34,189 nt of DNA from positions 1 to 34,189 of IMG/VR virus record IMGVR_UViG_3300037119_001461; one strand, written 5' to 3'. How positions within the stretch are numbered: the stretch's first letter is position 1; each line of letters begins with the position of its first letter. Source of the stretch: a virus. The notes beneath the pieces are model-generated. The model was given only the letters and a program-made list of their open reading frames with translations, was not told the origin of the DNA and ran no database searches. Of this stretch, positions 2,624 through 32,941 are shown piece by piece. The position numbers were made by a program, and so were the translations under genes.

Positions 2624-4277
2624 AGCTCAGACACCCACGCGCAGGGTCACGCTCGACGACCTTGCTGCCACGAGGTACGACATCGCGGGCTTCGCAGAGC
2701 TGATGGGCATCCGCGCACATCAGGGCCAGATACGCATCTGGCGCGAGATGACCAAGCGCGACGAGACCGAGTTCAGACCTCGATGGTTCACCATCTGTAT
2801 CAGCGCCGGGAACCGTGCCGGGAAGACCTTGATGGTGGCGATAGCTGTGCTGCACCACGCCATCTTCAAGCTTGGTCTGCGACCGCCCTTCAAGGACGAC
2901 TATCGCGAGCTTGAGCAGTTCAACCGACTCCCATACGACTGGTACCACTTCGGCATCCAGCAGGAAATCGGCGAGTTGCTCTTTCATGCCATCGTGCAGC
3001 TCATGGAAGGAACGCATGACGCACAGCGCGGCATCGGCAACCCATTGGTGGAGTCTTTCGGACCGATAGCCAAGTACGACGTCAAGGAACGTGGCGAATA
3101 CCGCTGGATACGTATCGACAAAGTCCTTGGTGGTGGGGAGATACATTTCAGAACCACTGCTGAGAGAGCCGTAGGTTCTCTCGGTAAAGACATGAACGGC
3201 ATATCTTTCGATGAGTGCGGCTTCGAGAATAACCTCACCTTCATCTTGGGCGAAGTCCTGCACAACCGACGACTCAGTACGGGCGGTCCCATCTTCCTCA
3301 TCTCTACGCCCAGTGAGGGTTTCGTCGAGTTCGCAGACGAATGGCAGAAGGGCGACCCAGCGGACCCACTCAAGGAACCGGACAGGATTTCCTTCAGGAT
3401 GTCTACGCGTGAGAACATCGGCTTCGGCGTAGACCAAAAGGTCTTCGACAGGATGCTCTTGGGCATGCCCCCGCATCTCATCCCCCAGAACATCGACGGC
3501 CACTTCATCCAAGGCCGACAAGCCTTCTTCGACGCACGCGCCGTCGATGCCATGTTCGTGACCGACCGACCCGAGCACGAACCTTGCATCCCGAGGCACA
3601 GATACGTGCAGGGCGTGGACCCCGCAGCGGTCTATGACAGCACGTGGAGCATCGTGCTGGACTGCACGACCGATGGCAGAGCCGATGGCGTCATGGCGAC
3701 CCGCAAGCAGGGCAAGCAGAAGGTCGTCGATGTCGCCCAGATGGTGGTCGATACGCACGTCGAGTACAGCCAGAAGAGTTCCCAGTGCGAGACAGCCGTC
3801 GATGTCACGGGCATGGGCGGTAAGGTCTTTCGCCAGCTCCTTGGTGACATCCACCCCTTCAGAGGGGTCGAGTTCGGTGGCACCAAGAAGAACAAGATGC
3901 GTCTCCTCACGGACCTCAAAGCCCTCATCGAGCAGGGACGCCTGCGCTTCCCGCGCACTGGCGTCTGGCTGGTGCTGCGCAGGCAGCTCTTGGCCTACGC
4001 CCTCGACGACCGACGCCTTGAGCAGGACGCCGTCATGGCATTGGCCGTCGCCGTCAAGCAGGTCATGCGCCAGATGGGCACGGGGCAGACGGCTGCGCCC
4101 TTCGCCTTCTGGGCTGGCTACACCGAGGTCCCATCCGAGCGCAAGGGCATACCCCGGACGGCTGACGGGAAGTTCAGGGCCAGTCTCTTGGGGCTGCCCT
4201 TGGCTGGAGAAGACCTCACCAAAGTGCGACTAAAGTACCGAATCGACCGAGCGGTCAAGCGTCGCTTAGTACTCTGA
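2616..4277 (+). CDS. terL: large terminase subunit (TerL)
   Basis: This 553-residue ATP-driven packaging motor cuts concatemeric DNA and pumps it through the portal. The N-terminal ATPase domain has a Walker A SAGNRAGKT at residues 63-71 and a Walker B with catalytic Glu in GISFDEC (D199, E200). The C-terminal RNase H-fold nuclease shows three acidic residues in their usual settings: D335 in GVDPAA, D396 in VDVTGMGG and D471 in LEQDAVMALA. The length is typical of the family. The start is GTG, overlapping the preceding gene. Unusually, the last codons and the stop lie inside the left arm of a perfect 19-bp inverted repeat (4263-4307). A basic tail after the nuclease (about residues 495-553) extends beyond the usual core. 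Confidence 0.95.
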   Translation: MTEAQTPTRRVTLDDLAATRYDIAGFAELMGIRAHQGQIRIWREMTKRDETEFRPRWFTICISAGNRAGKTLMVAIAVLHHAIFKLGLRPPFKDDYRELEQFNRLPYDWYHFGIQQEIGELLFHAIVQLMEGTHDAQRGIGNPLVESFGPIAKYDVKERGEYRWIRIDKVLGGGEIHFRTTAERAVGSLGKDMNGISFDECGFENNLTFILGEVLHNRRLSTGGPIFLISTPSEGFVEFADEWQKGDPADPLKEPDRISFRMSTRENIGFGVDQKVFDRMLLGMPPHLIPQNIDGHFIQGRQAFFDARAVDAMFVTDRPEHEPCIPRHRYVQGVDPAAVYDSTWSIVLDCTTDGRADGVMATRKQGKQKVVDVAQMVVDTHVEYSQKSSQCETAVDVTGMGGKVFRQLLGDIHPFRGVEFGGTKKNKMRLLTDLKALIEQGRLRFPRTGVWLVLRRQLLAYALDDRRLEQDAVMALAVAVKQVMRQMGTGQTAAPFAFWAGYTEVPSERKGIPRTADGKFRASLLGLPLAGEDLTKVRLKYRIDRAVKRRLVL

Positions 4278-4307: not shown

Positions 4308-4353
4308 CTGAGAACTTCCCGACACGAAAAGGTCGCACCACGAGCTGAGTGCG

Positions 4354-4362
4354 TGGTACGCT
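4354..4362 (+). promoter_or_regulatory. extended -10 promoter for a leaderless portal transcript
   Basis: TGG-TACGCT ends seven bases before the ATG at 4370, and no SD is present. The arrangement (hairpin, extended -10, ATG) matches 1280 and 29254. Confidence 0.5.
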
Positions 4363-4369
4363 CCCGGCC

Positions 4370-9400: not shown

Positions 9401-9442
9401 TCATACAACTACAACCCCTATAACCCGGTCTTCAGGAAGTGA
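6410..9442 (+). CDS. large structural or internal virion protein of unknown fold
   Basis: This is a 1010-residue protein with no family I can name. Residues 1-420 are helical and charged, with coiled-coil-like stretches. About 440-600 is beta-rich, with short Gly/Pro-bounded strands (THVYVPMTGGG, GWVYVPSETDP). A Gly/Ala segment near 665-690 (GNILGSAGALLG) could insert in a membrane. The end is a flexible Gly-, Asn- and Pro-rich tail finishing in YNYNPYNPVFRK. It follows the portal by three bases and overlaps the giant gene by four (GTGA), so the pair is coupled. Large proteins encoded next to the portal in short-tailed phages are often ejected with the DNA (T7 gp15/gp16-type by analogy), and I infer that role. 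A tape-measure function is an alternative, but the sequence has no long continuous coiled coil. Confidence 0.75.
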   Translation: MARTGRFGRQFREATDLTASIVALYERYERQREEVIFDAWRNGGEFEGKPVTDERLLDFMRDRRSNLDKSDPLWAEWDNRIGQYQFAISDQKNSIAHARAIAAASAIRDPRKRAAAMNAANAGRAAFFRRSATEHPRGSAAYRDLMLKAAQFSRVQQVARASAQKETESERFSRRYYAIYENKIKPAELVIDALELFMVKHGKLTNNEASQRGGLWAMDTQEWGDLHGLLSGLQQDESWPRLRRIIRGFVPGWDGNLDPGDFTRIANVALQGVNEQIRLARAQKGDYRTAIDQAKSQRDLIRRVSVLNRRASIFERYNDAIEKHATDKAEAQGDPFDELAADKAYVDELNRLKRKAMGGADQSPEMLELYAQLDVEVNMVVGNVDGVKTQSAVPLYMAAEGASGGTGRPDFATQVEERARAAKEHRDDVSGLIAGTHVYVPMTGGGISQQQVEPVEGSAPGYQIVEVVLDDITGLPMQGDPSTRIMPMSFSGGSYIDSDGKTVKLNQGAIGAQVTMKPVAGWVYVPSETDPNVGKWELHTIGSVGFHQGVNVWEMFREPLDPIGGGTWSVVGDLPGWVDADLKPYDTGYIMQPMGPLDDAMRQDFVNRLETQESRDAASTLGTFTTPVEQAPEAPTFEAPQGPDAAETFGGTVARAAAGRAPGPGEGVFGGAIGNILGSAGALLGKLAYEEGQTLAGIWGENDAERDVRLAQEREATAAEAASKGYVWDQSWQGRYQASMDGLKIMQDGPLSWGDLVSAYINYDQPTRKTFTNVASSDVVRIASLNGWGDEALIGVANSIDQASQLADETHEAMVLKRMADSDWRIDPQATFDYSETRLNERGDSAWQRFSDRYGLTRPTDLTKATNIEKTPFYDAAQQAQVPNATAMDFSASVASTPSTNIPGLGSMANPVNELSDLPGAPRAPETQDSVPKSLKVPSFGTFNGKDITVPQAFGMGGNVGGGLIGGAPGGRSGGVYQGGAGGIPQEAAQNTAAPKNSYNYNPYNPVFRK

Positions 9443-12400
9443 CCTACGACCCGACACGCAGTGCGGGCTTTCGTACGCAGGCCGAAGAAGAAGCGTATCG
9501 CCAGTCGCAGGCTGTTCCGACGCACGCCACGACACCACGCGTCGAAGCACCAGCCTATGGCTGGACGGATGGCTATGCCAATCGCCGTCTCTCCAGCAAC
9601 GGTGGCAGCTTCTCGACGGGTGACTATCTGGGCGGTCGCTACGGGCAGCCGCTCTATGACCCCGGCGTCGTCACCGCTGCGCAGGCCAGAGGCCACACGA
9701 AGGACACGGTCTCCGAGGTCGGGAAGTTCGCCCTCTCCGTAGCGCCCGAGCGCACGGTCGCTCCCTACGACCCCTCGAACGACCCGCCGCCTCGCCAGAT
9801 TGGTGACTTCGAGGGCATGTTCGGTGGGCTGACACGTCTCGCCACGGGCTTCCTGCCAAAGGACGTACAGGACACGCTGGCGAAGCTGCCCGAGGCACTG
9901 GGCACGCTCCTCGACCTGCCCTTCGGGGCGCTGCGCCATGACCTTCCCGGCTTCGGCGTGCAGGAGTCGTTCGAGAAGATGGCGAGCACGCCCGACAAGG
10001 AGGCTGCGCGTCGGAAGATTGCGGCCAACCCGACGTGGGGTCATTGGTACATGACCGAGTACATCAACTCGCACATGGGCGACTTCAGCGACGCTCATGG
10101 CATCCCGCATGCGCTGGGCATGCTCACGGCTCCGGGGGCATCACCCATCGGCAGGCTCTTCGGTGCCATGAACGTGCCCTATGAGGCAGCCACGAGGACC
10201 ATTGCCGGGGGCGCGCTGGACTGGCTGCCCGGTGTCGAGATGGACCGCGCCACCGAGCTGCTGGGCACGCCCGATGAAGACCTGCATCCATTGCTCCTAC
10301 AGCTCAAGCAGCAGTACCAGCGTGGTGACTTCGATGAGGATGGCCTGCTCGACCGATTGACCACACAGGGCTTCGGTCTCACCAACGACCACTTTCACGG
10401 CCTGCTGCTGAGCTTCATCACCGACCCGCTCATCCTCGCCTCGTTCGGCACCGGGACGTTCGCACGCATGACCAGCGCAGGTGGGCTGGCGGCACGTTCT
10501 GCACGCGTCTTGGCAGCCGTCCACAAGCTGCCCGAAGGCAGCCCACTGCGCATCGCCATGGCCGACTCGCGCATCCAAGCCGCTACGAAGAAGACCTCCT
10601 TCGGCAGGTACGCCAACCGTGACCTCTCGTATCGGGCTACGGAGCACTTCATCGAGCAGCGCAAGACCAACCCAGCTATCCAGACGCTGGTCAGCGAGGC
10701 CGAGGCAAAGCTCTCACCGCTGCATCGTGCGCAGGTCGCCATCGAGAGCGTCGCCAAGCCCGCCAACGCCATCAGCGAGGTCATCAACTCGCCCTTTGGC
10801 ATCTTCGGCCAGAACGGTGCTGCGCGTGCCGTGCTCTCGAAGTTCACGGCTGACACGGGTGACGGGCTGCTGCGCGGGCACGACTACAGCACGGCGGTGC
10901 AGCTCATCGGCGGCGACATCTCGAACCCCGGTGCGGCGAGCGAGGCACTGGGCCACTACCAAGCGCAGGCACAGCGCGGCTTGGTCATCGAGGCGCTGCA
11001 CAAGCAGCTACGCGTCGAGGGCAAGGGCGAAGGGCCGACCAACCTGCCTGACAGCCTGAACATCGAGGAGTACGTCAAGGCGTACGACCAGATGGACAAC
11101 CCGCTCAGCGCCCGTGAGATGGAGTCGTTCATCCGTGCCACGCGCAGGACGTACGTGCCGGAACCAGACCCGATGCGTACGCCCGCAGAGCACCAGCGGT
11201 TCTTGGAGACGTATGCCAAGGGCATGAACGAGCAGGCAGCCCTAAAGCTCGCACATGCCGTGCAGATACCCATCGAAGAGGCTCGACGGCGTGTGGGCAG
11301 GGGTGGGGACAACGTGTGGAGCTTCGTGGACGGCCTGCACTGGGGTCGCTTCTCCAAGGAGTGGGGCGACATCCGTGGCACCGACCTCGAAGCTGCCGGT
11401 ATCCGCATGGATGCCGTGGTCAACAAGCGCAGCGCGGTGTACGTCACCGAGCAGAACAAGGTCAGGGACGTGAAGCGAGCCACGCCCGTGGGGCCACGCG
11501 AGCTGGCCGACATCCGTGCCAAATCGGTCCTGCGGCTCGTCAAGAAGGCGCTGAAGTCGAATGACCGCACCGACGTCGAGCGTGCGCTGTCAGCCGTTGG
11601 TCAGTACGACCAGCTCCGCAATAACTTCTTCACGCAGACGTCGGCACGTGACGAGCTGACCATGCTGCGCTGGATGGAGCGCTACCTTGAGGAGGGGCTG
11701 AAAGAGGAGACGTTCGTCAAGGTCGTGACCGACCGTACCCAGCTCGAAGCGCCGGGGCTGTGGCAGCTTCTGGACGACGCCAACGCACGCATGGGCGGCA
11801 ACGAGCCTGCCTACCTGATGGGCATAGGTCCCACGCCCGACAAGGCGTTCCGTCCCGTGCATGACGAGCAGGGCCATCTCATCGGCTACCGAGCGTGGCT
11901 GGACGTGGCGGCTGACTCATCGCCGACAGCACTGCCCACGAAGTTCGACGACCTGCGCTTCCGATTGCTCACACCCATCCGTGCCGAGCACATCCTTCAG
12001 GAGAACCGACGTCGCTTCATCCAGATAGGAGCCGAGCGCTTCGGCCTGCGCGAGGCCGACACGACGGCGCTCTGGAGCGAGCTGCGCAAGGCAGGGCTGC
12101 GTAGTGGCAGGACGCTGCGCAGCTTCAAGGGTGAAGAGCTGGATGCCATCGTCGCCGCTGCGGCCATCTCCGACGAGCTGAAGACGAGTCTGGGCGACCG
12201 TGGTCTGGCGCGTCTCACAGCGCAGGCCATGGAAGGCGACATCAGGATGGTCGGCGTCATCCCCAAGATGACGGGCAAGCTGAAGTCCGGTGCTGCCGGT
12301 AAGGCCAATAACTCACTGGGGCATGTATCCGAGTACATCTATCCCTACGTGCGCTTCAACGTCTCGCCGTTCTTCGCACTTCAGGAGTACATCGAGCCGT

Positions 12401-15400
12401 TCTTCTTCAATATCCTGCGTGGCGTCAAGGTCGGCTTCCGTGAAAGCAGTGAGGACTCTGCATTCAGGCAGATGGTGTTCAGCATCGGCGGTGACGAACT
12501 CATGGCTCAGGATGCCATGAGTCGTGAGATGCGCACCATCGGTGTCTATGCGTCACGTGAAGCTGTCAATCCCAATACGCAGATTGGTCGAGAAGTCAGG
12601 GGCATCATCGGCAGGCTGACGTCGCGTACGGGTATAGCAGGTGTCGCCAGTACCAAGTGGATAAACCACACCAACCTCACCATGGAACGTCTGGGTGTCA
12701 TCGGTCGCCAGATGATAAATGACATGGAAGAGGCTGCTCATCGTGCAGGGTCGGATGAGTTCGACGGTGCATGGATGAAGATTGCTGGCGAGATGCAGCG
12801 GATGGTCGATGAGGGCCAGATAAAGTACAAAGACCCCAAGACCGGGCAGATGAAGACGATGAAGAGTCGTCAGCTCAGCGATGGCGAGATTGTGCGCCTG
12901 TACATGGAGCAGAGCGGTATCTCGCAGCGTGGTCGGTCGTGGCAGACGCAGCTCTGGGACGGCCAGAACCCCAGCAACCTTGGTCGTGTCAGCGCCATCC
13001 GGCAGGCTTCGCTGGCTCAGCTCTTCGGGCGTGACAGTGGGGCTGCGCTGCGTGCTGACATCGCCAACAGGGTCATCGACCAGTGGGAGTTCCGGGGCAG
13101 GCTGTCACGTCTGGGCTTCGACAGCGACTACACGCGCCGAGCGTGGGACATGATGACCGGCCCATCGGTCGATGACTTTCTGGATAGCGTCGAGAGAAGC
13201 TTCCGACAGGCAGGACGTACACCCGAGCAGGCAAAGCTCTCACGCGACCTGATGGACGCACATCTCCAGATATACGCCGCACATCACGGCCTCGACATCG
13301 AAGAAGCCGTCGCACGGAAGTTCAACAAGAGCGCCCAGTACCTCAACGCCAATCAGTCGCTGCCCTCGAACGCCTACCCGCAGTCGGTCGCACGTAACGT
13401 CAGCGACCATGGCTGGGAGCTGGCCGACGAGTTCGAGGCCGAGCGCACCATCGAGGCTGCCGACGAGCTTGCGCGTGCCGAGCAGGTGGCTGCCGACTTG
13501 CGCTACGAGGGTGACCGTGCCCGTGTCATGGACGAGCTGGACTCACGGCTTGCTCGTCGCCGGGAGTATCGACAGGACCCCGAGCTGTACCGTTCGGTCT
13601 TCGGGGTCGAGCCACCGACCGGACCGATGGCCGACATCGAGGACATCGACATCCGCATCGCTACCATCGAGGAGACCGAACGGGCGTTCGATTACGGCGG
13701 GACAGGGGCTATAGGGGAGCGCGCCGCAAGGAAGCTGGCGAGGCTGCGTGCCGACCGCGAGATACTTACTGCTAGCCCCGATGAGCCACTGCGCCTGAGC
13801 AGCCAAGGGCGATGGGCTGACGCTGACCTCGTCGCGCCCGAGCGTGCTCCTAAGTTCGATAACTATGACGAGCTTGTGGCCGAGATAGAGAGCCGCAACG
13901 TCATCGACGACACGACGCACTCCATCGTCGTACAGGACGATGGCACCGAGCGTCATCTCTTCACCCTGACCAACGCTGATGGCAAGGTCGTCAACGTCAC
14001 CGAGCTGACCACATCACCCAACAGCAAGGTCGCACGTGATATCCAGACGGTCACCAAGGAGGGCGAGCGTCGTCAGGGTCACGCTACGAGGGTCTATCGC
14101 GAGATAGAGGAAGCCGGGTACGACCTTTCAGGCAGTGGCAGGTTCGTCACCGCCGAGGGCGAGGCGTTCGTGCAGAGTCGCCAGCCCCGTGCGGTCAGCG
14201 GTGAGGTCATCACGGGCGATGAGCTGGTGGTGTCTTCCGACGACTGGCGACGACAGACGCTGGATGACCTCGATGAGCCGACCATCGTCGCCGTCATGGG
14301 CTTCGACCGCGACCTCGCACGTCTCATCGCCACGGTCATCAAGGACCCTACCGACGCTGCGCAGATATTCGACCTCGTACGCAATGACCCCGAGCTGGGC
14401 ATGTCATTGGTCTCACACCTTGCCACGTCTGGTGGTGACCTTCAGGCCATGCTCAAGAGGTTCAGCTCAGACCCGCCGACCGACGCTCATCGCCGCATCG
14501 CCGCCGACATGAACATGGGCGAGGGCTTCATGGGCAAGAAGGACTGGACGGCCCGTGACGTGCAGAACCTCGACCGTGTGCGCGCACGACGTACCGAGGG
14601 ATTGGATGACGTCGATGAGCTGGACTTCGCTGATGGTGTGAGCATCGAGACGCAGCTCCCGCTGCACACCATGGACCTCGACGTGGCGCAGGCGGTCAGC
14701 GCCGAGGTAGCGCCTTTGGTGGCCGAGGCCGTGGGACGTCGTACGGGTGCTCGCATCGTGGGCATCGAGGACTCCATGGAAGGCGACATGGATGCCGGTG
14801 CGCTCGTTTCACGTGGGACACGCTTCGTCGTGCGGGCTGACAGTCCGGGTGCCATCACGGACGCCGCCGACGAGATAGCCGTCCTCACTGGGCGTGAGAC
14901 CTATGTCATCGAGGACGCCGGTCGTACGGTCATCGGCTTCGACCCGACCTACGGCGACGAGGTCACGCACATGTCACGTGCGGTGAACGAGCTGGATGCC
15001 GAAGGTCTTGCCGACGAGCTGGACGAAATCATCCTCGCTGCCGACGAAGCGCTCATGGACATCGACGAGGAGGCATGGTCGGCCAACCGTGCCCGGTACG
15101 AGCATTCGTCGAAGTTCGAGCCGGATGTCTATCGCTACCAGCGTGGTGCCCGAGGGCGTGGCTGGCGTGGTGCCACGACGTTCGACCGCAGACGTAGGGC
15201 CACGCTCTACATCAACGACAACGCCGACGCCACGACCATCGTCCATGAGACCTTCCACACGTGGGCGCGTGACCTCGACCGCAGCGGCAAGGCGGCGCTC
15301 GTCGATGCCTACACGGCGTCGCCCAAGTACAGGCGCATGGCCGTCGCCAGACGTCCTACCGGGGCGAAGCTCCAGCGCATGGCCGAGGAGTGGGCAGCCG

Positions 15401-16272
15401 AGCAGTTCGAGGCGTACGCAGCCTCTGGGCTGGCCCCCGACCCGAAGCTGCGCCTGCACAACATCTTCAACGCCTATGCCGACTGGGGGCGCAGGTCGGG
15501 CGTGGTGTCGAATACTCGCGTGGCCGCACTAGACCCGAAGCTTCAGGCGCTCTTCGACAAGATGACGCCAGAGGTACACGGCAAGGAGATGGCCGTCTTC
15601 GACCCGCAGCAGTTCCGCATCATGGAGACGTTGCGTGTCGCCATCATGCGTGCCGAGGACGAGTCACACACGACGCAGTATTTCCGTAGGAACAAGACAT
15701 TCCTTGAGCGCAGCGTCAATCATCCGTTCTTCGGTTTGTACCCCGTCTCGTACATGTACGGGAAGGTCCTACCAGAGATGGCACGCTTCCTGTTCAAGAA
15801 ACCCTTTGGCGTCAACGCACCACTTGCAGGTGCAGCCATGTGGAACCACGTATTCGACGCCATGATGCTGGAGATGTCAGGCGATACGGAGTTCGCGCAG
15901 CTCCTCACAGACAACCCCGAGGCCGTGCGCTTCTTCACGCTCCTGCTGCCCGGATTGCCCAATGACATCAGCGTGAACTTCCCGGCATGGATGCGCAGGG
16001 TGGCGACCAATAGCCTCACTGATGAACCGACTGACTTCGGTGGCCTGATGACCGACTACCTGAGCTATGCCATGAGCGACAGGCTCTCACCAGAGGCCAT
16101 CATGGATGGCCTTTCCGAGTCGAGTCGTGTCGTCGGCGGCATGCTCGACGTGTTCGGCGGTCAGGGATACGAGAGCGAGGCCGAGCTGAAGAACCAAGAG
16201 TCACTGACCGAGCAGTCACAGGGTATGTACGGTCGGTACGCTCCAGAGCCTTACTCTGAAGCTGTACAGTGA
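9439..16272 (+). CDS. giant multidomain virion protein with zincin motif (polyvalent-protein-like)
   Basis: At 2277 residues this is about one fifth of the window. The start is GTG at 9439, overlapping the preceding stop. Residues 1-900 are mostly helical without a known signature. Around 960-1200 there are hydrophobic, aromatic stretches (YIYPYVRFNVSPFFALQEYI). Residues 1541-1580 contain ERRQGHATRVYREIEEAG followed by a Gly-rich turn, resembling motif A of GNAT acetyltransferases. A metallopeptidase-like site lies at HETFH (1936-1940), with candidate third ligands E1984 and E1988 in EEWAAEQFEAY, in line with a gluzincin arrangement. The C-terminal 300 residues are again hydrophobic and amphipathic. 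Such mixtures match the published 'polyvalent protein' concept: injected, multi-domain proteins acting in the new host. Transport into the cell and enzymatic activity are inferred. Confidence 0.8.
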   Translation: MTYDPTRSAGFRTQAEEEAYRQSQAVPTHATTPRVEAPAYGWTDGYANRRLSSNGGSFSTGDYLGGRYGQPLYDPGVVTAAQARGHTKDTVSEVGKFALSVAPERTVAPYDPSNDPPPRQIGDFEGMFGGLTRLATGFLPKDVQDTLAKLPEALGTLLDLPFGALRHDLPGFGVQESFEKMASTPDKEAARRKIAANPTWGHWYMTEYINSHMGDFSDAHGIPHALGMLTAPGASPIGRLFGAMNVPYEAATRTIAGGALDWLPGVEMDRATELLGTPDEDLHPLLLQLKQQYQRGDFDEDGLLDRLTTQGFGLTNDHFHGLLLSFITDPLILASFGTGTFARMTSAGGLAARSARVLAAVHKLPEGSPLRIAMADSRIQAATKKTSFGRYANRDLSYRATEHFIEQRKTNPAIQTLVSEAEAKLSPLHRAQVAIESVAKPANAISEVINSPFGIFGQNGAARAVLSKFTADTGDGLLRGHDYSTAVQLIGGDISNPGAASEALGHYQAQAQRGLVIEALHKQLRVEGKGEGPTNLPDSLNIEEYVKAYDQMDNPLSAREMESFIRATRRTYVPEPDPMRTPAEHQRFLETYAKGMNEQAALKLAHAVQIPIEEARRRVGRGGDNVWSFVDGLHWGRFSKEWGDIRGTDLEAAGIRMDAVVNKRSAVYVTEQNKVRDVKRATPVGPRELADIRAKSVLRLVKKALKSNDRTDVERALSAVGQYDQLRNNFFTQTSARDELTMLRWMERYLEEGLKEETFVKVVTDRTQLEAPGLWQLLDDANARMGGNEPAYLMGIGPTPDKAFRPVHDEQGHLIGYRAWLDVAADSSPTALPTKFDDLRFRLLTPIRAEHILQENRRRFIQIGAERFGLREADTTALWSELRKAGLRSGRTLRSFKGEELDAIVAAAAISDELKTSLGDRGLARLTAQAMEGDIRMVGVIPKMTGKLKSGAAGKANNSLGHVSEYIYPYVRFNVSPFFALQEYIEPFFFNILRGVKVGFRESSEDSAFRQMVFSIGGDELMAQDAMSREMRTIGVYASREAVNPNTQIGREVRGIIGRLTSRTGIAGVASTKWINHTNLTMERLGVIGRQMINDMEEAAHRAGSDEFDGAWMKIAGEMQRMVDEGQIKYKDPKTGQMKTMKSRQLSDGEIVRLYMEQSGISQRGRSWQTQLWDGQNPSNLGRVSAIRQASLAQLFGRDSGAALRADIANRVIDQWEFRGRLSRLGFDSDYTRRAWDMMTGPSVDDFLDSVERSFRQAGRTPEQAKLSRDLMDAHLQIYAAHHGLDIEEAVARKFNKSAQYLNANQSLPSNAYPQSVARNVSDHGWELADEFEAERTIEAADELARAEQVAADLRYEGDRARVMDELDSRLARRREYRQDPELYRSVFGVEPPTGPMADIEDIDIRIATIEETERAFDYGGTGAIGERAARKLARLRADREILTASPDEPLRLSSQGRWADADLVAPERAPKFDNYDELVAEIESRNVIDDTTHSIVVQDDGTERHLFTLTNADGKVVNVTELTTSPNSKVARDIQTVTKEGERRQGHATRVYREIEEAGYDLSGSGRFVTAEGEAFVQSRQPRAVSGEVITGDELVVSSDDWRRQTLDDLDEPTIVAVMGFDRDLARLIATVIKDPTDAAQIFDLVRNDPELGMSLVSHLATSGGDLQAMLKRFSSDPPTDAHRRIAADMNMGEGFMGKKDWTARDVQNLDRVRARRTEGLDDVDELDFADGVSIETQLPLHTMDLDVAQAVSAEVAPLVAEAVGRRTGARIVGIEDSMEGDMDAGALVSRGTRFVVRADSPGAITDAADEIAVLTGRETYVIEDAGRTVIGFDPTYGDEVTHMSRAVNELDAEGLADELDEIILAADEALMDIDEEAWSANRARYEHSSKFEPDVYRYQRGARGRGWRGATTFDRRRRATLYINDNADATTIVHETFHTWARDLDRSGKAALVDAYTASPKYRRMAVARRPTGAKLQRMAEEWAAEQFEAYAASGLAPDPKLRLHNIFNAYADWGRRSGVVSNTRVAALDPKLQALFDKMTPEVHGKEMAVFDPQQFRIMETLRVAIMRAEDESHTTQYFRRNKTFLERSVNHPFFGLYPVSYMYGKVLPEMARFLFKKPFGVNAPLAGAAMWNHVFDAMMLEMSGDTEFAQLLTDNPEAVRFFTLLLPGLPNDISVNFPAWMRRVATNSLTDEPTDFGGLMTDYLSYAMSDRLSPEAIMDGLSESSRVVGGMLDVFGGQGYESEAELKNQESLTEQSQGMYGRYAPEPYSEAVQ

Positions 16273-16324: not shown

Positions 16325-16873
16325 GTGGCAGACGAGCAGCAGGCGGTCGGAGAGGCCGAAGCCACCCCGGAGACGGGGTCGCAGGCGCAGACTCCCACCG
16401 CTGAGCAAGTCGAAGCCGAGTACAAGGCCCGTCTTTCAGGGAAGGACAAGGCCCACGCGGCAGAGACAGCTACTCTTCGGTCGCAGATAGCAGCACTGGA
16501 AGCTTCACAGAAAGACTCCACGCAGCGCACTGCCACCGAGAACGACGCCATCAAGACAGAGCTAGAGAACACCAAGAAGCAACTGGTGCAGACGCAGCGC
16601 GACGCACTCGTCACCACGAGGGCGGCACGCTTCCCCAACGCAGCAGAAGCTCTTGAGCCGGATGTCCTAGCGTCGATGGACGAAGCGAAGCTCGCAGGTC
16701 TCGAAGCCAGACTGGCCCCAGCGTCAGCAGGTCTCCCGCCGCTCGCATCCTCCACTCCCGCCAAGGCTTCTACGGCACCCAAGCCACAGTCGGAGAAGAC
16801 CGTCGCAGAACTCGAAGCCGACCTTCGCAGGTTCGGCCCACAGTTCGAGCAGGAAATCCGACGCAACATGTAG
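16325..16873 (+). CDS. scaffolding-like protein
   Basis: This 182-residue, acidic, Ala/Glu/Gln-rich protein would guide capsid assembly and leave before maturation. The N-terminal 30 residues are low-complexity. Residues 35-95 form a predicted coiled coil (LRSQIAALEASQKDS, ENTKKQLVQTQRDAL). A Pro/Ala/Ser/Thr linker follows, and the final helix is charged and amphipathic (LEADLRRFGPQFEQEIRRNM), where capsid-binding segments usually sit. It lies immediately before the major capsid protein, the standard place for a scaffold. The start is GTG, behind GGAGGA with a short four-base gap. The identification rests on composition, size and position because scaffolds are poorly conserved. Confidence 0.75.
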   Translation: MADEQQAVGEAEATPETGSQAQTPTAEQVEAEYKARLSGKDKAHAAETATLRSQIAALEASQKDSTQRTATENDAIKTELENTKKQLVQTQRDALVTTRAARFPNAAEALEPDVLASMDEAKLAGLEARLAPASAGLPPLASSTPAKASTAPKPQSEKTVAELEADLRRFGPQFEQEIRRNM

Positions 16874-16885
16874 GGAGTTACACAC

Positions 16886-17872
16886 GTGGGCGACGTTTAC
16901 GTCTCCGCAGGTACAGGGGCGTCCAACTCTGGAGCCATGGCCGGTGCGCCGACCATGACCGCCAACTTCGACCGCACCGTCACGGCGCTGGTCGAGCGAC
17001 GCATCCTCGACAACCTGCGCGAGGTCTCGCGCTGGCTCGTTCCGGGGGCGTATATCCCCGGCCGGCTCATCCCCGGCACCAACCTCATCCGCCACATCGC
17101 CTACGGCGACCTGCCGGTGGATGACCCCATCATCGCCGTCGAGGGCATCGCGCCCGACGAGGAGCCGCTGACCATCGGTTACGACGAGTACGCAGCCGTG
17201 CAGCGTGGTCGCATCATCGGTGTCACCGACGTGGCGCTCCAGATGTCACCCCATGAGCTGATGGCCGTGGCTGCCGACAAGGTGTCCCACGACGCGCTGA
17301 TGACCGTTGACCGCAGCGTCGCTGCTGCCGTCATGGCCGGGACCGGCATCACCCTCACGGTGGCCGGGGCTGGCGTGGTCGCAGCGGATGTCCGGCGCTG
17401 GGTGACGGACCTGAAGTACGCCAACATCCCACCGTTCTCGGACGGCTTCTACCTGTGCATGATTCACCCCGACGTCGCGTACGACCTTCAGGGCGACACG
17501 AGCATCGGTGGCTGGATTGAGGCCAGCAAGTACGCTGACCCCTCCCGCCTGCTGAACGGCGAGATTGGGCGCATGTACGGCATGCGCTTCATCGAGACCA
17601 CGGTCGGGACGCGCAACGCTGCCGCTACCGACACGTTCAACACCGTGGCCTTCGGCCCCGACTACTTCGCCTTCGGCGACCTCCAGTCGGTCGAGACCTA
17701 CATGATTCGACCGGGCGGCAACCATGCCGACCCGCTCGCCCAGAAGGCTCTGGTGGGCTACAAGGGCATGTGGGGTGCCAAGACGCTGGAGAGTGCGTCG
17801 CTGGTGGCGACTGGCGCTGGGCCTCGCTACGGCAAGGTCGAGGGTCACGCAGGCACCATCAACCGGGCATAG
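16886..17872 (+). CDS. major capsid protein, N4gp56 family
   Basis: This 328-residue protein is the main shell subunit. It matches the N4gp56-type capsid family (HK97 fold) as I know it. The features are an N-terminal LVERRILDNLREVSRW helix, the segment YDEYAAVQRGRIIGVTDVAL with the long helix that follows, a central stretch in which FYLCMIHPDVAYDL precedes IGGWIEASKYADPSRLLNGE, then the IGRMYGMRFIETT strand, and a C-terminal QKALVGYKGMWGAKTL. The family is typical of N4-like and other short-tailed phages and of some prophages. The start is GTG, with GGGAG at 16873-16877 eight bases ahead. A perfect 11-bp hairpin follows the gene, which may protect or end the abundant capsid mRNA. Confidence 0.93.
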   Translation: MGDVYVSAGTGASNSGAMAGAPTMTANFDRTVTALVERRILDNLREVSRWLVPGAYIPGRLIPGTNLIRHIAYGDLPVDDPIIAVEGIAPDEEPLTIGYDEYAAVQRGRIIGVTDVALQMSPHELMAVAADKVSHDALMTVDRSVAAAVMAGTGITLTVAGAGVVAADVRRWVTDLKYANIPPFSDGFYLCMIHPDVAYDLQGDTSIGGWIEASKYADPSRLLNGEIGRMYGMRFIETTVGTRNAAATDTFNTVAFGPDYFAFGDLQSVETYMIRPGGNHADPLAQKALVGYKGMWGAKTLESASLVATGAGPRYGKVEGHAGTINRA

Positions 17873-17879
17873 TGAGGGA

Positions 17880-17911
17880 GTGAGGGGAGCTTCCCCAGTG
17901 GCTCCCCTCAC
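17880..17911 (+). terminator. hairpin after the capsid gene
   Basis: GTGAGGGGAGC (17880-17890) pairs perfectly with GCTCCCCTCAC (17901-17911) around a ten-base loop. There is no T-tract, so it is a partial or factor-dependent terminator, or an mRNA stabiliser. It ends nine bases before the next ATG, leaving no room for an SD. Confidence 0.65.
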
Positions 17912-17920
17912 CCGACCTAG

Positions 17921-18568
17921 ATGACCTACACACCACCGCCTCTGTCCGACCTGCGTGCGTCGGTGAGCCGTGACCTTCGCGACCCTACGAACAAGACGTT
18001 CACGACGGGGGAGGTCGATGACCTCATCCGCATGGGCATCGTCGAGGTCTCACGCGTCTATCCCAAGGAACGAGTGCTCGAACTCCTCGTCACCGAGGAC
18101 GGGCAGCGCACCTTCGACGTGCTGGATGCCTACTCGCTGTTCAGGGTCGAGCTGCTGGACATCGAGGGCAACACGCGCATGGGCATCCCGGCGTCGGTCG
18201 ATAACGTCCACTCCGAGACGGGCTGGGACTTCCACGCTGAAAAGCTCTACCTGCCTGCCTATGCGTCGGTGCGTCTGGCTGTCGTTGATGAACCCAAGGT
18301 CAGGGCGTGGGGCTATTGGAAGCGTGACGTCCTCACGGATGACACCGACGTCTTCGATGGTGATGCCGATGCCGAATACGCTTCTCGCTCATATGCACTC
18401 ATGGTCGGCTATCAGCGTCTACAGAACGACAGGCTGCTCTTCCAGCAGTGGCTCACCACGACAGGCAACACGGATGTGAGTCCTAACCAGCTCGCGCAGA
18501 CGGCTGACATGTATCAGGGTGAGTGGAGGGCGTACCGACAGCGTCTTCGCATCGGCCAGAGGCAGTAG
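17921..18568 (+). CDS. head-tail adaptor (connector) protein
   Basis: This 215-residue protein probably docks under the portal and links the filled head to the tail. The N-terminus LSDLRASVSRDLRDPTNKTFTTGEVDDLIRMGI is the helix-turn-helix opening of many head-tail adaptors, which read 'LR..VR..L.D.....WSD.EL...I..A'. A beta region spans about residues 50-125. A C-terminal helical bundle with Gln-rich ends (QLAQTADMYQGEW) completes the adaptor layout. Its place after the capsid gene supports the call. There is no SD in front of the ATG because the capsid hairpin takes up the space, so translation may depend on local structure or readthrough coupling. It overlaps nothing downstream; the next gene starts three bases after its stop. 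Confidence 0.75.
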   Translation: MTYTPPPLSDLRASVSRDLRDPTNKTFTTGEVDDLIRMGIVEVSRVYPKERVLELLVTEDGQRTFDVLDAYSLFRVELLDIEGNTRMGIPASVDNVHSETGWDFHAEKLYLPAYASVRLAVVDEPKVRAWGYWKRDVLTDDTDVFDGDADAEYASRSYALMVGYQRLQNDRLLFQQWLTTTGNTDVSPNQLAQTADMYQGEWRAYRQRLRIGQRQ

Positions 18569-18570
18569 CC

Positions 18571-19470
18571 ATGGACCTGACCAGACCTGTCACCTACCGT
18601 GGCCTGACGCTCACGGGGGCCGAGGGAGGGCCGGGTGGCGCTCAGCCCATCGACGGCATCCGCCTCTCCCGTGCCCGCTACACGGACGTCCCGGTCGCTG
18701 CCTACACCGAGAAGCGCAGTCTTGGTGCAGGGCTGGACGCCTCCGACGCCTACTTGGGCGGTCGCATGATGGTGCTCACCGGGGAGGTCTTCGGCGAGAA
18801 CAAGGGCACGCTCTTCGACCGACTCGACTTCATGCGTGAGGTCTTTTCGGCATCGAGTGCGTTCGAGTCGAACCCGGACCTCAAGGGCTACCTGCCCTTG
18901 GAGTTCTCACAGCCCACCAACCTGACGACGCACTGGCCCACGGGCTTCATCGCGAAGGTGCTCTTCGTGCGTCCCATGACGCAGAACGAGCACGACATCG
19001 TCTTCGGTGCCATCGGTGGCAAGCCGACCAACGGCTACGTGGTGCCTTTCACCGTGGCGCTTCAGGCCAAGGACCCCTTCTTCCACGCTGTCGTCGATGC
19101 GTCGGAACTCATCACCGGCAACGGCAGCGAGGACTTCCGCAACCGTGGCAACGCACCATCGCCGCTGCGCATCGAGCTGCACATCAACGACACCGCTGCT
19201 GGTGGCTTCACGCTGGACAATGACCGCACCGAGATGACGCTGACCATCCCGGCAGGGGCGTCGCCGAGGCACATCGTCTGCGACTCGGCCCAGAAGATAG
19301 TGACGCTGAACGGTGACCTCGCCATGGACCTCATCGAGATAGAGACGGGCACATGGCCGGTGGTCATCCCGACCGACGAGGAAGGGCCATTGGACGCACA
19401 TGTCTGGACGACAGGGGCTACGCCATTGGTCGCACCCTCCAACCTCTCGTGGCCGGAACTCTGGTACTAG
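18571..19470 (+). CDS. distal tail (Dit-like) protein
   Basis: This 299-residue protein resembles siphovirus distal tail proteins, which form the ring joining tail and host-contact apparatus. The N-terminal half carries the expected pattern: a short strand-rich start (VTYRGLTLTG), then an arginine-loop region and RMMVLTGEVFGENKGTLFDRLDFMREVF, where Dit families read 'i.l.g.i.g.....l...ld.L...l'. The C-terminal half (about residues 165-299) is a beta-sandwich-like segment with IPAGASPRHIV and a tail that reads like the family's second domain. The start was moved to the ATG at 18571 because AGAGG (18558-18562) stands eight bases upstream. The hub gene follows three bases after its stop, a standard Dit-hub pair. 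Confidence 0.75.
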   Translation: MDLTRPVTYRGLTLTGAEGGPGGAQPIDGIRLSRARYTDVPVAAYTEKRSLGAGLDASDAYLGGRMMVLTGEVFGENKGTLFDRLDFMREVFSASSAFESNPDLKGYLPLEFSQPTNLTTHWPTGFIAKVLFVRPMTQNEHDIVFGAIGGKPTNGYVVPFTVALQAKDPFFHAVVDASELITGNGSEDFRNRGNAPSPLRIELHINDTAAGGFTLDNDRTEMTLTIPAGASPRHIVCDSAQKIVTLNGDLAMDLIEIETGTWPVVIPTDEEGPLDAHVWTTGATPLVAPSNLSWPELWY

Positions 19471-19473
19471 GCC

Positions 19474-22374
19474 GTGCTAGGGAGGGTCATCCTTCGGCGC
19501 ACCAAGGTCGAGGTCAACCGCAAGCCGGGTGACATCAGGGCCATCATCGAGGACCCACACAACCTCGCTGTGGCGACCTACGCCAACGAGATGGGCGAGA
19601 TGTACTTCACGCTGCCGCTCGACCATCCCCAGCTTGGAGAGTGCGAGCCGTTCAGGACGCACTGGGAGGTCCAGAAGTGGAACGGCAGCGCGTGGGTGCG
19701 CCTGCACAAGTACGCCTACGGCCTGCTGACCGACCTCGACTTCACGCAGGACGAGGTCATCGTCTACGGCATGGACTACATCGGGCTGCTCTCGCTGAGC
19801 TTGGATACCCGCACGCCAGAGGAGAAGGCTGACGGGACGTACAAGAACTTCAATAAGAGCACACGCCACGGTGGGACCAAGTACAAGAACGAGAAGATTT
19901 CCTACATCCTCAAGGAACAGCTCGACAGCGCACAGGACGAAGAGGACTCGCTGACTGGCTTCATCCATCGTGGGCAGGTCGATACGATGGACACGGAGAT
20001 TTCCATCTACGTCACGTTCCGCCAGCGATTGGACTTCATCAAGGGGCTGCTCGACTCCTACCGGCAGGGCACGGGCATCGGCTCACGTCTCGTGGCGCTC
20101 TACGACAACGGCGAGGACCGCTGGGAGTGGCGCATCGACGCCGACCCCGGCGTGGAGCGTCCAGAGCTGCGCTTCGAGTACGGCGGTCTGGTGCAGGGCT
20201 TCCGCATCCTGACCTACGAGAACTTCGCCACGCGTGCCATGGGCGTGGGCGTCGTGCTGGACTCGACCAAGCCCATCTACCGCATGTTCCCCAACGAGGG
20301 CGCGGTGGACAGCTACGTGACCCAGTACGGCAACATCCAAGTCGCCAACGTCTGGCAAGACCTTTCGGACAGGAACGACCTCAAGCGCAGAGTCAGGCAG
20401 CTCTACGCCGAGCGCTCTCGCATCGGCAAGAAGGTCGCACTGGGCATCCGGGTACACAGCCTGATGCCCTTCGAGGGGTACGACCTTTCGGACCACGTCA
20501 TCTTGGACTTGGACAGGTACGCGCTCGATACCCAAGCATTCGGCTCAGGCTGGTGGACGATATGGGGCACCGAGTGGCGTCTGGCACCGGATGGGCACGA
20601 TGAACTCACGCTCGTCATCCGACCCCGAGAGGACACCAAGCCTGCCGACCCGGACATCCTTGACTCCGACCCGGTCACGCCACAGCCAGCCCTCTGCTTC
20701 GGCTACGGTCCACCCATCCCCGGCGAGGAGTGTGACTGCGGTGATGACGGCTACGTCGATGTGCTGACGGGTAAGGTCTATGTCTGCAAGGACGGCGAGT
20801 TCACGGGCACGGTCGGTGCCGACAAGTGGGACTCCGAGTTCAAGACCTTCGACGACTTCGAGCGCATCATCGCCCCGAGTGCTGGCGACATCACGGTCAT
20901 CGGCGTAGCTGAAGACCTTGGCGTCAACTATGTCGAGGGTGATACGCACATCACCATCGACCTGCCTGACGGTTGCGACGTCGTGGGCAGGCACGTCTTT
21001 ATCTATCTCGATAGCCATGACGACTCAGACATCCAAGAGTTCATGGAGACGGCTGGCTTCACCAAGCTCCTCGCTACGGTCGGGTCGGACTGGTTCTATC
21101 GGCGCATCGACGGCACCGAGGGCTGGACGGCGACAGGCGAGCAACTGAACGTCGTGCTCTTGGGCATCACGCCGCAGGTAGCAGGCTTCGCCATCCTGCT
21201 CGAAGGCGTGTACGACGAATACCCCGACAACCCCGGACCGTGGTACGTCGGTGGGCTGAGTGTCACCGCAGACCCAGCCGGGGTGTCCTCACCGGCATGG
21301 GCAGGCGCTCCGGGTATCGTGCTGACGTCATTGCGTACGAACGGTGGTGTCATCTCGGCAGGGCCAGCGGGCTACACGGTCATCGGGGACTACTCCGACA
21401 TCGACATCAACGTGCGTGGCGACTACAAGCTCATGGTGGCAGGGGCTGAGAACCCCGGCGCGTACACGGCCACGGGGGCCGAGCAGACGCATACCGCGCT
21501 CATCAGGGGCGGCGGATTGGTCGCACCCGGCATCGGCATGAACCTGCCCGAGCCGCCCAAGTGGGAAGCTCGCCTCTGGGACGCCACTGGCCTCTCTGCC
21601 GACTGGCACATCGAGGACGGCTGGCTCGTGCTCGAAGGCACAGAGGTCGGTGGCAATGTCGATACGGTCAGCCAGTACGGTGCGTCCTATGACCCGGACG
21701 GTGACCTCATCGAGGATGCCCCGGCAGGGCCGTACGACGTCCCGCACATCGTGCGCATCACGTTCGTCATCACCGAGGGACTGGGCGGGCTTGGCACCTT
21801 CGGCGTCGGCTTCGAGTGGCAGTGGGCATCGGCTACGCATGAAGGTCAAGCCGGTGCGTACAGCGTCGGCATCGCACTCAGGCCGACGGTTGGCTGGGTG
21901 CTCATCGTGGATGGTGTGGACTATCCCTTGGCTGATGTGGCCGTATTGGATACGGACACCGTGTACATCCTTGAGATTGACTTCTTCGGCGGTCTGAAAG
22001 TACGAGTCGCGACGGAAGAAGCGCTCGACAGCACCATGCACATCTACAACAGTCTTATCATCGCCGAAGGTCTCGACCAGTCAAAGCTCGCACTGCACGG
22101 CTTCGTGACCGCAGGCTGCAAGGCATGGGTCGAGGAGATAGCCATCCTCATGCCGCCTGCGAGCAATGAGACCTTCGAGGGCATCTTCATCAACTACGGC
22201 GACGGAGCTACGACGGTCTTCCAAGGCTTCCCGACAGCCGAGGGCACGGTGCAGTGGGAGGTCGATGGCATCCTGACCGAGCCTGAGTCGGTGGACGAGG
22301 AAGACGGCACGGTCACTTTCGACCGACCACTGGCGTGGCTCTCACGGGTGCAGCAGTCGGGGACGAGGCGCTGA
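19474..22374 (+). CDS. tail hub / ReqiPepy6 Gp37-like protein with C-terminal binding domains
   Basis: This 966-residue GTG-started protein sits directly after the Dit-like gene. Residues 1-395 match the ReqiPepy6 Gp37-like hub domain as I know it from actinobacteriophages. The recognisable parts are a strand-rich start (ILRRTKVEVNRKPGDIRAII), the Y-G-D-Y core (VIVYGMDYIGLLSLSL), a helical RQLYAERSRIGKK segment and the closing WRLAPDGHDELTLVIRPRED. A short Cys cluster (CFGYGPPIPGEECDCGDDGY, then VYVCKDG) forms a linker near 415-445 that could bind metal or form disulfides. About 450-966 consists of beta-rich modules with jelly-roll-like strands (residues 680-870), likely carbohydrate-binding or enzymatic. 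It overlaps the next fibre gene by one base (TGATG). No peptidase or lysozyme motif was recognised. Confidence 0.75.
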   Translation: MLGRVILRRTKVEVNRKPGDIRAIIEDPHNLAVATYANEMGEMYFTLPLDHPQLGECEPFRTHWEVQKWNGSAWVRLHKYAYGLLTDLDFTQDEVIVYGMDYIGLLSLSLDTRTPEEKADGTYKNFNKSTRHGGTKYKNEKISYILKEQLDSAQDEEDSLTGFIHRGQVDTMDTEISIYVTFRQRLDFIKGLLDSYRQGTGIGSRLVALYDNGEDRWEWRIDADPGVERPELRFEYGGLVQGFRILTYENFATRAMGVGVVLDSTKPIYRMFPNEGAVDSYVTQYGNIQVANVWQDLSDRNDLKRRVRQLYAERSRIGKKVALGIRVHSLMPFEGYDLSDHVILDLDRYALDTQAFGSGWWTIWGTEWRLAPDGHDELTLVIRPREDTKPADPDILDSDPVTPQPALCFGYGPPIPGEECDCGDDGYVDVLTGKVYVCKDGEFTGTVGADKWDSEFKTFDDFERIIAPSAGDITVIGVAEDLGVNYVEGDTHITIDLPDGCDVVGRHVFIYLDSHDDSDIQEFMETAGFTKLLATVGSDWFYRRIDGTEGWTATGEQLNVVLLGITPQVAGFAILLEGVYDEYPDNPGPWYVGGLSVTADPAGVSSPAWAGAPGIVLTSLRTNGGVISAGPAGYTVIGDYSDIDINVRGDYKLMVAGAENPGAYTATGAEQTHTALIRGGGLVAPGIGMNLPEPPKWEARLWDATGLSADWHIEDGWLVLEGTEVGGNVDTVSQYGASYDPDGDLIEDAPAGPYDVPHIVRITFVITEGLGGLGTFGVGFEWQWASATHEGQAGAYSVGIALRPTVGWVLIVDGVDYPLADVAVLDTDTVYILEIDFFGGLKVRVATEEALDSTMHIYNSLIIAEGLDQSKLALHGFVTAGCKAWVEEIAILMPPASNETFEGIFINYGDGATTVFQGFPTAEGTVQWEVDGILTEPESVDEEDGTVTFDRPLAWLSRVQQSGTRR

Positions 22375-23153
22375 TGGTCGCCACGTCCGACCGCCACGAC
22401 ATCACCTTCGCCGATGACTCCAAGACGCCGGGTCGCAGGCTCAACAACTGGACCGCCACCGTCGCACCCACGGTCACGGACGACGAGGACGCGCACTACG
22501 AGGTCGGCTCGCGCTGGGTCGTGGCTTCAGAGGAAGAGGTCTGGACGTGCGTCGATGCCAGCGCAGGGGCAGCCGTATGGGTATTGCCTGCTGGCGGCGG
22601 TGGTGGCGGGACGGACATCCACGGCGAACTCGAAGAGCTGCTGGATGATGACCACACGCAGTACGCCATCCTCGTGGACTCGACGACGGAGCCACCCGCT
22701 GACCGACCGGGCTGGCTCTGGTACGACCCGGACGACCCCGCTGGCGGTGTCAGCGGCCCTCCGTCCGGCCCTGCTGGTGGGGAGCTGAGTGGGACCTATC
22801 CGAACCCATCGGTGGTGTCATCGCACGCAGGCTCGACACATGCTGCTGCTCAGAGCGCAGCCGAAGCCACGGCAGCGGCAGCCTTGGCCGCACATGCAGC
22901 AGCCGGTGACCCGCATGCTGGCTATGCCACCGATGGCGACCTGACGGCGCACGCTGCTACGTCCCATGGTGGGTCTATCGACTGGGGTGAGGACGCCGAC
23001 ATCACCGACCTTGACTACGACGACGTAGCTGATGCCGGTGTATTGGACGAGGCTGCACGAGCAGACCATCGGCACGGCATGCCTGCCGCTGCTGGTGGTG
23101 GTGGCGAAGTGCCTCCTGCCGTGAAGGTCTACATGTACGAGCGCTTCAAGTAG
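22374..23153 (+). CDS. tail fibre / appendage protein
   Basis: This 259-residue protein carries the motif GGELSGTYPNPSV, a hallmark of phage tail fibres, and a DDDHTQY segment. A long Ala/His-rich trimer-like stretch (AAAQSAAEATAAAALAAHAA) and a HAATSHGGS element follow. The N-terminus (about 1-85) would be the attachment domain, ending in a Gly6 linker. The C-terminus closes with DHRHGMPAA and a short helix. DDDHTQY and HAATSHGG recur in the collagen-like fibre at 24392, indicating shared module origin. The ATG at 22374 overlaps the hub's stop and was preferred to the open frame beginning at 22335. Confidence 0.75.
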   Translation: MVATSDRHDITFADDSKTPGRRLNNWTATVAPTVTDDEDAHYEVGSRWVVASEEEVWTCVDASAGAAVWVLPAGGGGGGTDIHGELEELLDDDHTQYAILVDSTTEPPADRPGWLWYDPDDPAGGVSGPPSGPAGGELSGTYPNPSVVSSHAGSTHAAAQSAAEATAAAALAAHAAAGDPHAGYATDGDLTAHAATSHGGSIDWGEDADITDLDYDDVADAGVLDEAARADHRHGMPAAAGGGGEVPPAVKVYMYERFK

Positions 23154-24391: not shown

Positions 24392-26173
24392 ATGGGCACG
24401 CTGAAGGTATGGGACGACGACTCGGGGACGTGGGTCGTCGTCGGTGGTGTCGGCGAACAGGGAGAGCAAGGTGAGCAAGGCGACCCCGGACCAGAAGGTC
24501 CCACCGGACCAGCCGGTGCCACAGGACCAGCCGGTGCGACGGGTGCGACGGGCGCAACGGGTGCCGCAGGACCACAGGGTGACCCCGGTGCCGCAGGAGC
24601 CACTGGTGCCACAGGTGCGACCGGCCCAGAAGGGCCGACCGGGGCCACGGGCGCAGTGGGAGCAACGGGAGCTACTGGGCCGGAAGGACCGGAAGGGCCG
24701 CAAGGACCTGCCGGTGACGACGGTGCCCCCGGTGCAACGGGTGCCACAGGTGCGACAGGAGCGACTGGTCCTGAAGGTCCACAGGGTGATGTAGGGCCAG
24801 AAGGTCCCACTGGCCCAGAGGGTCCAGAAGGTCCCACGGGGGCGACTGGTGCCACGGGTGCCACGGGCGCGCAGGGTATCCAAGGCATCCAAGGTGACCC
24901 CGGACCCACGGGTGCGACGGGTGCGACGGGTGCGACGGGTAGCACCGGACCTCCGGGGACGACGCTGCACTCAGGGCTGTCCGACGTCACTGCTGACCAG
25001 CACCACGCACGTGACCACGCCATCGACGGCAGCACGCACACCGGCACGCTCTCGGATGCGCAGATACCGGCCAGCATCGCTCGTGACAGCGAGGTCACGG
25101 CGGCTGTCGCTGCGCATGAGTCAGATGCCACGGATGCTCACGATGCGTCGGCCATCTCGCTCTTGGACGCTGGCGCTCACTACTCGGCCACTAACGTCGA
25201 GGACGCCTTCCTCGAAGTCGCCATGGCCGTGGCTGCGCACACGTCGGATAGCCATGATGCTCACGACGCATCGGCTGTCTCCATCGCTGATGCTGCTGGG
25301 CACTTCACTGGCGAGGACGTCGAGGCTGCACTGGCCGAGACGCAGGATGACCTAGCGGCTCATGCAGCGACGTCCCATGGCGGGGTCTCCGACCACGGTG
25401 CGCTCACGGGGTTGGCCGACGATGACCACACGCAGTACGAACTGGGCTATGCCCAGACATCCGACCCCGGCACGCCACCACATGCGTCAGCGCTCTGGTA
25501 CGACACCGATGCCACGCCAGCCGCGTTCACGCCGCCCAAGCGCAGCGTCTTCACGGTGTCGGGGACGTGGGCGAAGACCGGCAGCCCGAGGTACATCGAA
25601 GTCGAGGTCGTCGGCGCTGGCGGTGGGGCTGGCGGTGCCGGGGTTACGGGGTCGGGCGCATCGGCTGTCTCAGGTGGCGGTGGCGGTGGTGCCTATGCGA
25701 AGGCCGTCCTCGATGCCACGTCGCTCGGCTCGGTGGACTATGGCGTCGGGGCTGCTGGTGCGGGCGGCTCAGGTGCGGCTGGCAACGGTACGGGTGGTGG
25801 CAGCTCGCACTGGGGCACGACCATCCTCTCGGCTGGTGGGGGTAATGGCGGCACGGCTGCTGCCGCGACGTCAGGCAACTCGACGGCCAATGGCGGCACC
25901 GGGGGAGCTGCCAGCGGTACGGCTCCCGGTGCCATCCTCATCCCCGGTGGCAACGGCGGCAATGGCGAGTCGGTCGGAGGCGTCCGCATCTACTCGGGCA
26001 CGGGTGGGGCGAGTGCGTCCTATGGACCCATGCAGACACCGGGCAACGGGGCCGGTGTGACCGGCAACGGCTACGGTGGCGGTGGTGGCGGCGCGGCCAA
26101 TGGCGGTTCAGCGTCAGCGGTCTCTGGCGGCGCGGGTGCGACTGGTGCGGTCATCGTCACGGAGTACTACTGA
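24392..26173 (+). CDS. collagen-like tail fibre with glycine-rich tip
   Basis: This 593-residue fibre probably binds the host. Residues 1-19 read [19 protein letters not shown], a virion-attachment motif shared with the gene at 26173. Residues 21-189 are about 56 Gly-X-Y triplets, mainly GATGAT and GPEGP, a collagen-like triple helix. A trimeric, His/Asp-rich region with two related repeats ([19 protein letters not shown] and [19 protein letters not shown]) spans 240-330. It is followed by DDDHTQY and then, from about 384, [13 protein letters not shown] leading into a Gly/Ala/Ser-rich tip. Such tips form polyglycine-II-like sandwiches that carry receptor specificity in other phage adhesins. 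GAGGA lies six bases before the ATG. The repetitive DNA at 24448-24960 is a recombination and assembly risk. Confidence 0.85.
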
Positions 26174-32939: not shown

Positions 32940-32941
32940 GG

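Follow-up and report, generated by a model that had tools for sequence, protein, structure and literature searches.

The 34,189-base IMG/VR record IMGVR_UViG_3300037119_001461, analysed whole and called here the window, is a genome fragment on which the gene for an N4gp56-type capsid protein is followed by genes for a presumed head-tail adaptor, for a protein predicted to fold as a siphovirus-type distal tail protein (Dit), and for a predicted gp27/Tal-type hub. No tail-tube or tape-measure family was detected in this gene block, and none is listed in scans of two relatives of genome length. The window probably covers the larger part of the structural module of a phage, as yet uncultured, whose very short tail would consist of portal, adaptor, a single Dit ring and a hub, and whose ejection would be carried out by giant internal proteins. 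From the predicted folds we infer a hybrid tail design, a possibility already raised in the first-pass annotation of this DNA.

The structural genes form a rightward block in the order terminase large subunit (TerL), portal, a 1010-aa protein, a 2277-aa protein, presumed scaffold, major capsid protein, presumed adaptor, Dit, hub and fibres.

Capsid, Dit and hub genes

The features on which the argument turns are the following.

16886..17872, plus strand: major capsid protein, N4gp56 type (phrog_1357, E 1.4e-26; TIGR04387)
17921..18568, plus strand: presumed head-tail adaptor, 215 aa (position between capsid and Dit, and sequence pattern only)
18571..19470, plus strand: Dit, 299 aa, with predicted tube-like N-terminal and galectin-like C-terminal domains (phrog_33; AlphaFold model; structure matches)
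19474..22374, plus strand: hub gene, whole (without a hidden Markov model (HMM) match; fold from model)
19474..20676, plus strand: hub core, 401 aa, with a predicted gp27/Tal fold in residues 1 to ~240 (model; 15 aligned sequences)
20677..22374, plus strand: hub C-terminal extension, ~565 aa, a putative fibre or binding part (poorly conserved among relatives)

The N4gp56 assignment of the capsid protein, made at first pass, is borne out by the phrog_1357 match and by TIGR04387 (capsid_maj_N4), which scored 90.6 bits against a curated cut-off of 60 and exceeded this cut-off in all six records tested. PF25209 reached 20.4 in the window, where the cut-off is 27, and gave no match in another scan. 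The accompanying remark that this capsid family is typical of short-tailed phages stands in so far as the family links the window to the Streptomyces Beephvirinae, in whose cluster Abafar and Destructrice have 16 nm tails; the family alone is no proof of a short tail. Against a phage collection, the capsid query gave 55 matches, 35 of them to Streptomyces phages.

For the next protein, structure-based searches confirmed the earlier suggestion of a Dit-like product after the adaptor. With an AlphaFold model built from 22 Dit sequences (mean pLDDT 85.2), Foldseek returned ten PDB matches at E ≤ 0.001, every one of them an entry for a Dit, a baseplate, a tail tip or an injection device; SPP1 Dit, Douge and 80alpha ranked highest, with a Foldseek value of 2.8e-8 for the Dit fold. 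In VIA-align, SPP1 Dit scored Z 15.3 (223 aligned residues, rmsd 4.8), Douge 15.2 and Bxb1 13.6; the first nine rows were phage baseplate, Dit or monocin-tip entries with Z of at least 11.8, and the tenth row had Z 7.9. The SPP1 match spans both domains (model residues 4-299). Among the best 50 of 82 matches (E ≤ 0.001) in the viral structure library BFVD, most of those named were tail proteins, many of them Dit, and none carried the name of a podovirus protein, several rows being nameless. Judged by its model, the protein at 18571-19470 is thus a siphovirus-type Dit with a two-domain fold.

At the sequence level, the Dit of the window matched phrog_33 (E 3.7e-6) and scored 16.5 bits with PF22768 (cut-off 25), and PF05709 was over its cut-off in one of six records, that of relative G003. 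The phage collection gave no match to the window Dit at E 0.01 and a single one, at E 0.7, to that of G003; a Dit profile run against PDB sequences found nothing useful. The gene begins at the ATG at 18571, the residue at which all seven relatives aligned also begin. A GTG at 18523 was considered as an alternative start and rejected, since it overlaps the adaptor and the conserved start is 18571.

The fold of the hub was read from an AlphaFold model of its core, built from 15 sequences. Residues 1 to ~240 matched the hubs of phiCD508 (Z 12.4), HFTV1 (12.3), Douge (11.7) and Bxb1 (10.9), and also those of Mu (Z 9.8-10.0) and T4 gp27 (Z 7.8), so that, as modelled, this part is a hub fold of the gp27/Tal type. 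The matches of Dit and hub both lead to the siphophage baseplates of Douge (8zdo, chains m and s) and Bxb1 (9d93, chains Ma and Oa). Of the first-pass description of this protein as a Gp37-like hub, the hub part therefore holds in the modelled region; the Gp37 label (PF14594, Sipho_Gp37) is too specific and was not confirmed, with none of six records matching at E ≤ 1 in a search where no control matched either.

The window hub is without an N-terminal region of ~430 aa that is seen in 21 of 24 relatives, the other three stretches ending before it, and a profile of this region found no match in the window. In the phage collection, neither hub nor portal of the window had a match at E 0.01, and TerL had one weak match; the G003 hub matched through its C-terminal part, to minor tail, fibre, tailspike or unannotated records only. 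A hub profile gave no useful match among PDB sequences, and from 26 pattern matches in bacterial and archaeal genomes no hub relative emerged.

As the first pass had noted, no tape-measure or major tail gene lies between adaptor, Dit and hub: the two gaps measure 2 bp and 3 bp, and neither holds a gene. From the stop of the capsid gene to the start of Dit there are 698 bases in the window versus 6076 in Bxb1. Apart from the window, scans with capsid, Dit and hub yielded 24 different related contigs, whose neighbourhoods were read by local profile searches and gap measurement. In 22 of 23 measurable contigs, between -1 and 12 bp separate adaptor from Dit (23 of 24 with relative G008, at 3 bp), and the Dit and hub genes abut or overlap in 20 of 21 (21 of 22 with G008), the remaining contigs ending first. 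Because this order is kept across contigs whose Dit proteins share only 28-47% identity, it is not a product of chance.

Tube and tape-measure search, giant proteins and flanking genes

Since the window is incomplete, genome-length relatives were used for the question of tube and tape-measure genes. G003 (46,749 bases) is very probably a complete genome, circularly closed or terminally repeated, because its first and last 123 bases are an exact repeat; G008 (48,403 bases) has both ends inside Dit and is hence near-complete, with little missing. The scans took in frames of at least 90 aa, namely 33 of 34 open reading frames of G003 together with the giant of G008, and 39 of 40 of G008. The families listed comprise all 18 from Pfam (G003 scan only) and, from PHROGs, 25 of 39 for G003 and 25 of 27 for G008.

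Among the families listed were capsid, portal, terminase, nucleases, recombination, primase and the Dit-type Sipho_tail domain, and a minor tail protein appeared once. The first-pass annotation had called for a check of the rest of the genome for tail-tube genes, and no family of tubes, tape measures, terminators or chaperones is among those listed for G003 and G008; a search with PF10145 found none of six records at E 1. As a positive control, nine neck and tail proteins of Bxb1 were run against the same PHROGs library and all nine were named, a control limited by the fact that Bxb1 is nearer to the content of PHROGs than these phages are.

Upstream of TerL, G003, G001 and G008 carry two large leftward genes. 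Pfam matches in the scan of G003 as a whole include CbbQ_C/AAA and VWA, which suggests a possible MoxR/CbbQ-VWA pair.

The other assigned features of the window are these.

2616..4277, plus strand: TerL (phrog_2, E 5.7e-19; 50-70% identity to relatives)
4349..6406, plus strand: portal protein (phrog_156, E 1.5e-19)
6410..9442, plus strand: p1000, 1010 aa, presumed internal/ejection protein (position conserved)
9439..16272, plus strand: p2400, 2277 aa, with HExxH; presumed internal/ejection protein with a metalloprotease-like site
16325..16873, plus strand: presumed scaffold, 182 aa, directly 5' of the capsid gene (position and conservation)
22335..23153, plus strand: fibre-like protein, 272 aa (phrog_33012, E 1.7e-10; weak likeness to the carbohydrate-binding domain of Dit)
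24392..26173, plus strand: collagen-like tail fibre (phrog_6320 tail fiber, E 6.6e-49)

We presume p1000 and p2400 to be internal or ejection proteins by analogy, because giant genes near the portal gene, with no tape measure found, are a known habit of actinobacterial podoviruses. Relatives of p1000 occupy the equivalent position in G001, G002, G003, G008 and G009, and the protein had no family or useful PDB match. In p2400, the HExxH motif is kept in all six homologues, five aligned sequences have in common an EEW ~47 residues past it, and a simple hydropathy scan found no membrane-like segment in five of the six. HExxH with a downstream EEW would presumably fit a gluzincin-type zinc peptidase, and from these motifs p2400 is possibly a virion-borne metalloprotease. 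Giant virion RNA polymerases are a property of the N4-like Schitoviridae; p2400 had no convincing family or PDB match, in searches that were not aimed at a virion RNA polymerase.

Downstream of the hub, the 272-aa fibre-like protein matched PF21869 under the cut-off (E 0.0012), and the tail fibre at 24392-26173 contains a long collagen-like Gly-X-Y stretch. The frame at 27225-27641 encodes a small secreted-looking protein in which glycine/aspartate repeats resembling RTX can be seen by eye. On the minus strand, 30923-32978 holds two conserved leftward genes with relatives in G002, G003 and G008, and the part at 30923-32098 matches phrog_906 DNA polymerase/primase. The window has a G+C content of 63.6% and no tRNA genes.

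Proposed tail and its alternatives

In the tail that we consider probable, a dodecameric adaptor beneath the portal would bear a Dit hexamer directly. The tube-like N-terminal domain of Dit would supply the sole tube ring and its galectin-like C-terminal domain would hold fibres, while a trimeric hub beneath it would shut the channel and carry host-binding parts, giving ring symmetries of 12/6/3. Without a tape measure, tail length would be set by the ring stack itself. Opening of the hub at the cell would let p1000 and p2400 leave the head and form a passage through the envelope, possibly aided by the HExxH site.

Several points weigh against this proposal. The group is known from contigs and predicted structures alone. 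The hub-core model is good only in residues 1 to ~222 and poor past ~240 (mean pLDDT 55), the 215-aa presumed adaptor had no match in HMM and PDB searches, and p1000 and p2400 are without family assignment. The link to the Beephvirinae through the capsid amounts to one gene, whose match covers 43% of the query at ~28-30% identity. A tube or tape-measure protein that is very divergent could have escaped the families listed from PHROGs. Nor is the gene order absolute, given that contig L067 runs capsid, Dit, ~1 kb, adaptor, hub; a 147-aa open frame lies between Dit and the adaptor that it precedes there (L067, 8001-10842).

Another explanation is a siphovirus whose tube has escaped recognition and in which the 1010-aa or the 2277-aa giant is a displaced tape measure. 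Both giants are long and unassigned, and in long-tailed phages, according to PMC9394477, Dit and Tal genes normally lie 3' of the tape-measure gene. However, the families listed for G003 and G008 lack neck as well as tube, terminator and chaperone proteins, although the PHROGs library recognises all nine Bxb1 proteins; PF10145 was negative in all six records, in 20 of 21 contigs the stretch from adaptor to hub has no gene to spare, and p2400 retains its HExxH and, by the hydropathy scan, has no membrane-like segment in five of six homologues. We therefore hold this explanation to be unlikely. The same low standing is given to an ordinary podovirus whose Dit-fold protein is a nozzle of the T7 type or a knob of the phi29 type, and whose likeness to siphoviruses reflects shared tube-fold ancestry. 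In phi29, the knob protein does have an N-terminal domain folded like a tube protein (PMC11476376), but the likeness seen here goes beyond a shared tube domain, because both domains of Dit take part in the match (4-299, Z 15.3) and a hub of siphovirus/myovirus type adjoins it.

It is conceivable, too, that the nozzle is an unrelated one, with Dit and hub attached at its side for adhesion rather than forming rings of the channel; the adaptor is unconfirmed, and galectin-like domains such as that at the C-terminus of Dit could hold fibres. As both the tube-like N-terminal domain of Dit and the fold of the hub core are retained, and the adaptor-Dit-hub order persists in nearly all relatives, we regard such an arrangement as very improbable.

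Extending the proposed short tail to the relatives, we lean slightly towards a widespread uncultured clade in which the tail has been cut down to its baseplate and giant metalloprotease-like proteins are ejected in place of tape-measure function. If the proposal is true, a tail tip can persist after loss of tube and tape measure, and these phages would represent an evolutionary intermediate, or a shortcut, between siphovirus and podovirus tails. They would also allow the fit between adaptor, Dit and hub to be tested in a minimal system.

Comparison with known phages

The Streptomyces Beephvirinae (cluster BF: Abafar, Immanuel3, Kumquat) resemble the window in their N4-type capsid, TIGR04387 being annotated in Abafar, and in a giant gene, single in their case, between portal and capsid. 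Tails of 16 ± 2 nm are given for Abafar (Manuelvirus, Beephvirinae; PMC11536984) and for Destructrice (cluster BF), which has no identifiable tape measure in the account cited (PMC13097060). The Microbacterium Eekayvirinae (Akoni, ArMaWen) and Burro share the short tail and a giant gene (>4,400 aa) adjoining the portal gene, but differ in gene order. The EK phages and Burro are described as podoviruses with giant genes (PMC7302621, PMC8281081, PMC13069448), a ~250 kDa virion protein of Burro being taken as the giant gene product or part thereof (PMC7302621); for Akoni and TicTac no tape measure is identified in the accounts cited (PMC13069448, PMC8281081).

A profile-profile comparison covering Beephvirinae, Eekayvirinae and Bxb1 related the Beephvirinae to the window by the capsid only (98.6%), showed no Dit or hub relation to Eekayvirinae and Burro, and found no relation of p1000 or p2400 to the giant proteins of cultured podoviruses. 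Its sensitivity is low and, since the Bxb1 Dit control failed too (2.8%), we dropped it as evidence of absence; the Dit alignment profile likewise gave no link to Bxb1, Immanuel3, Akoni or Burro, the Bxb1 Dit control again being missed. Structural relatives of Dit and hub may possibly be hidden in Beephvirinae or Eekayvirinae.

The mycobacteriophages Bxb1 and Douge, both siphoviruses, share the predicted Dit and hub folds, whereas Bxb1 has genes for neck, terminator, tube, chaperone and tape measure between capsid and Dit. Podoviruses of the phi29 kind share the short tail and, in the knob protein, a tube-fold domain, but neither Dit nor a gp27-type hub is among the features described in the excerpt available. 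In the literature covered, which is partial, we found no description of a podovirus with a full Dit and a gp27-type hub. Tube-fold rings in short tails are thus already known, and the combination of Dit with a gp27-type hub is, as far as these sources go, apparently new. A review describes podoviruses as lacking a baseplate, unlike myo- and siphoviruses (PMC9863714); a short-tailed phage built on Dit and a Tal-type hub, if real, would contradict that description.

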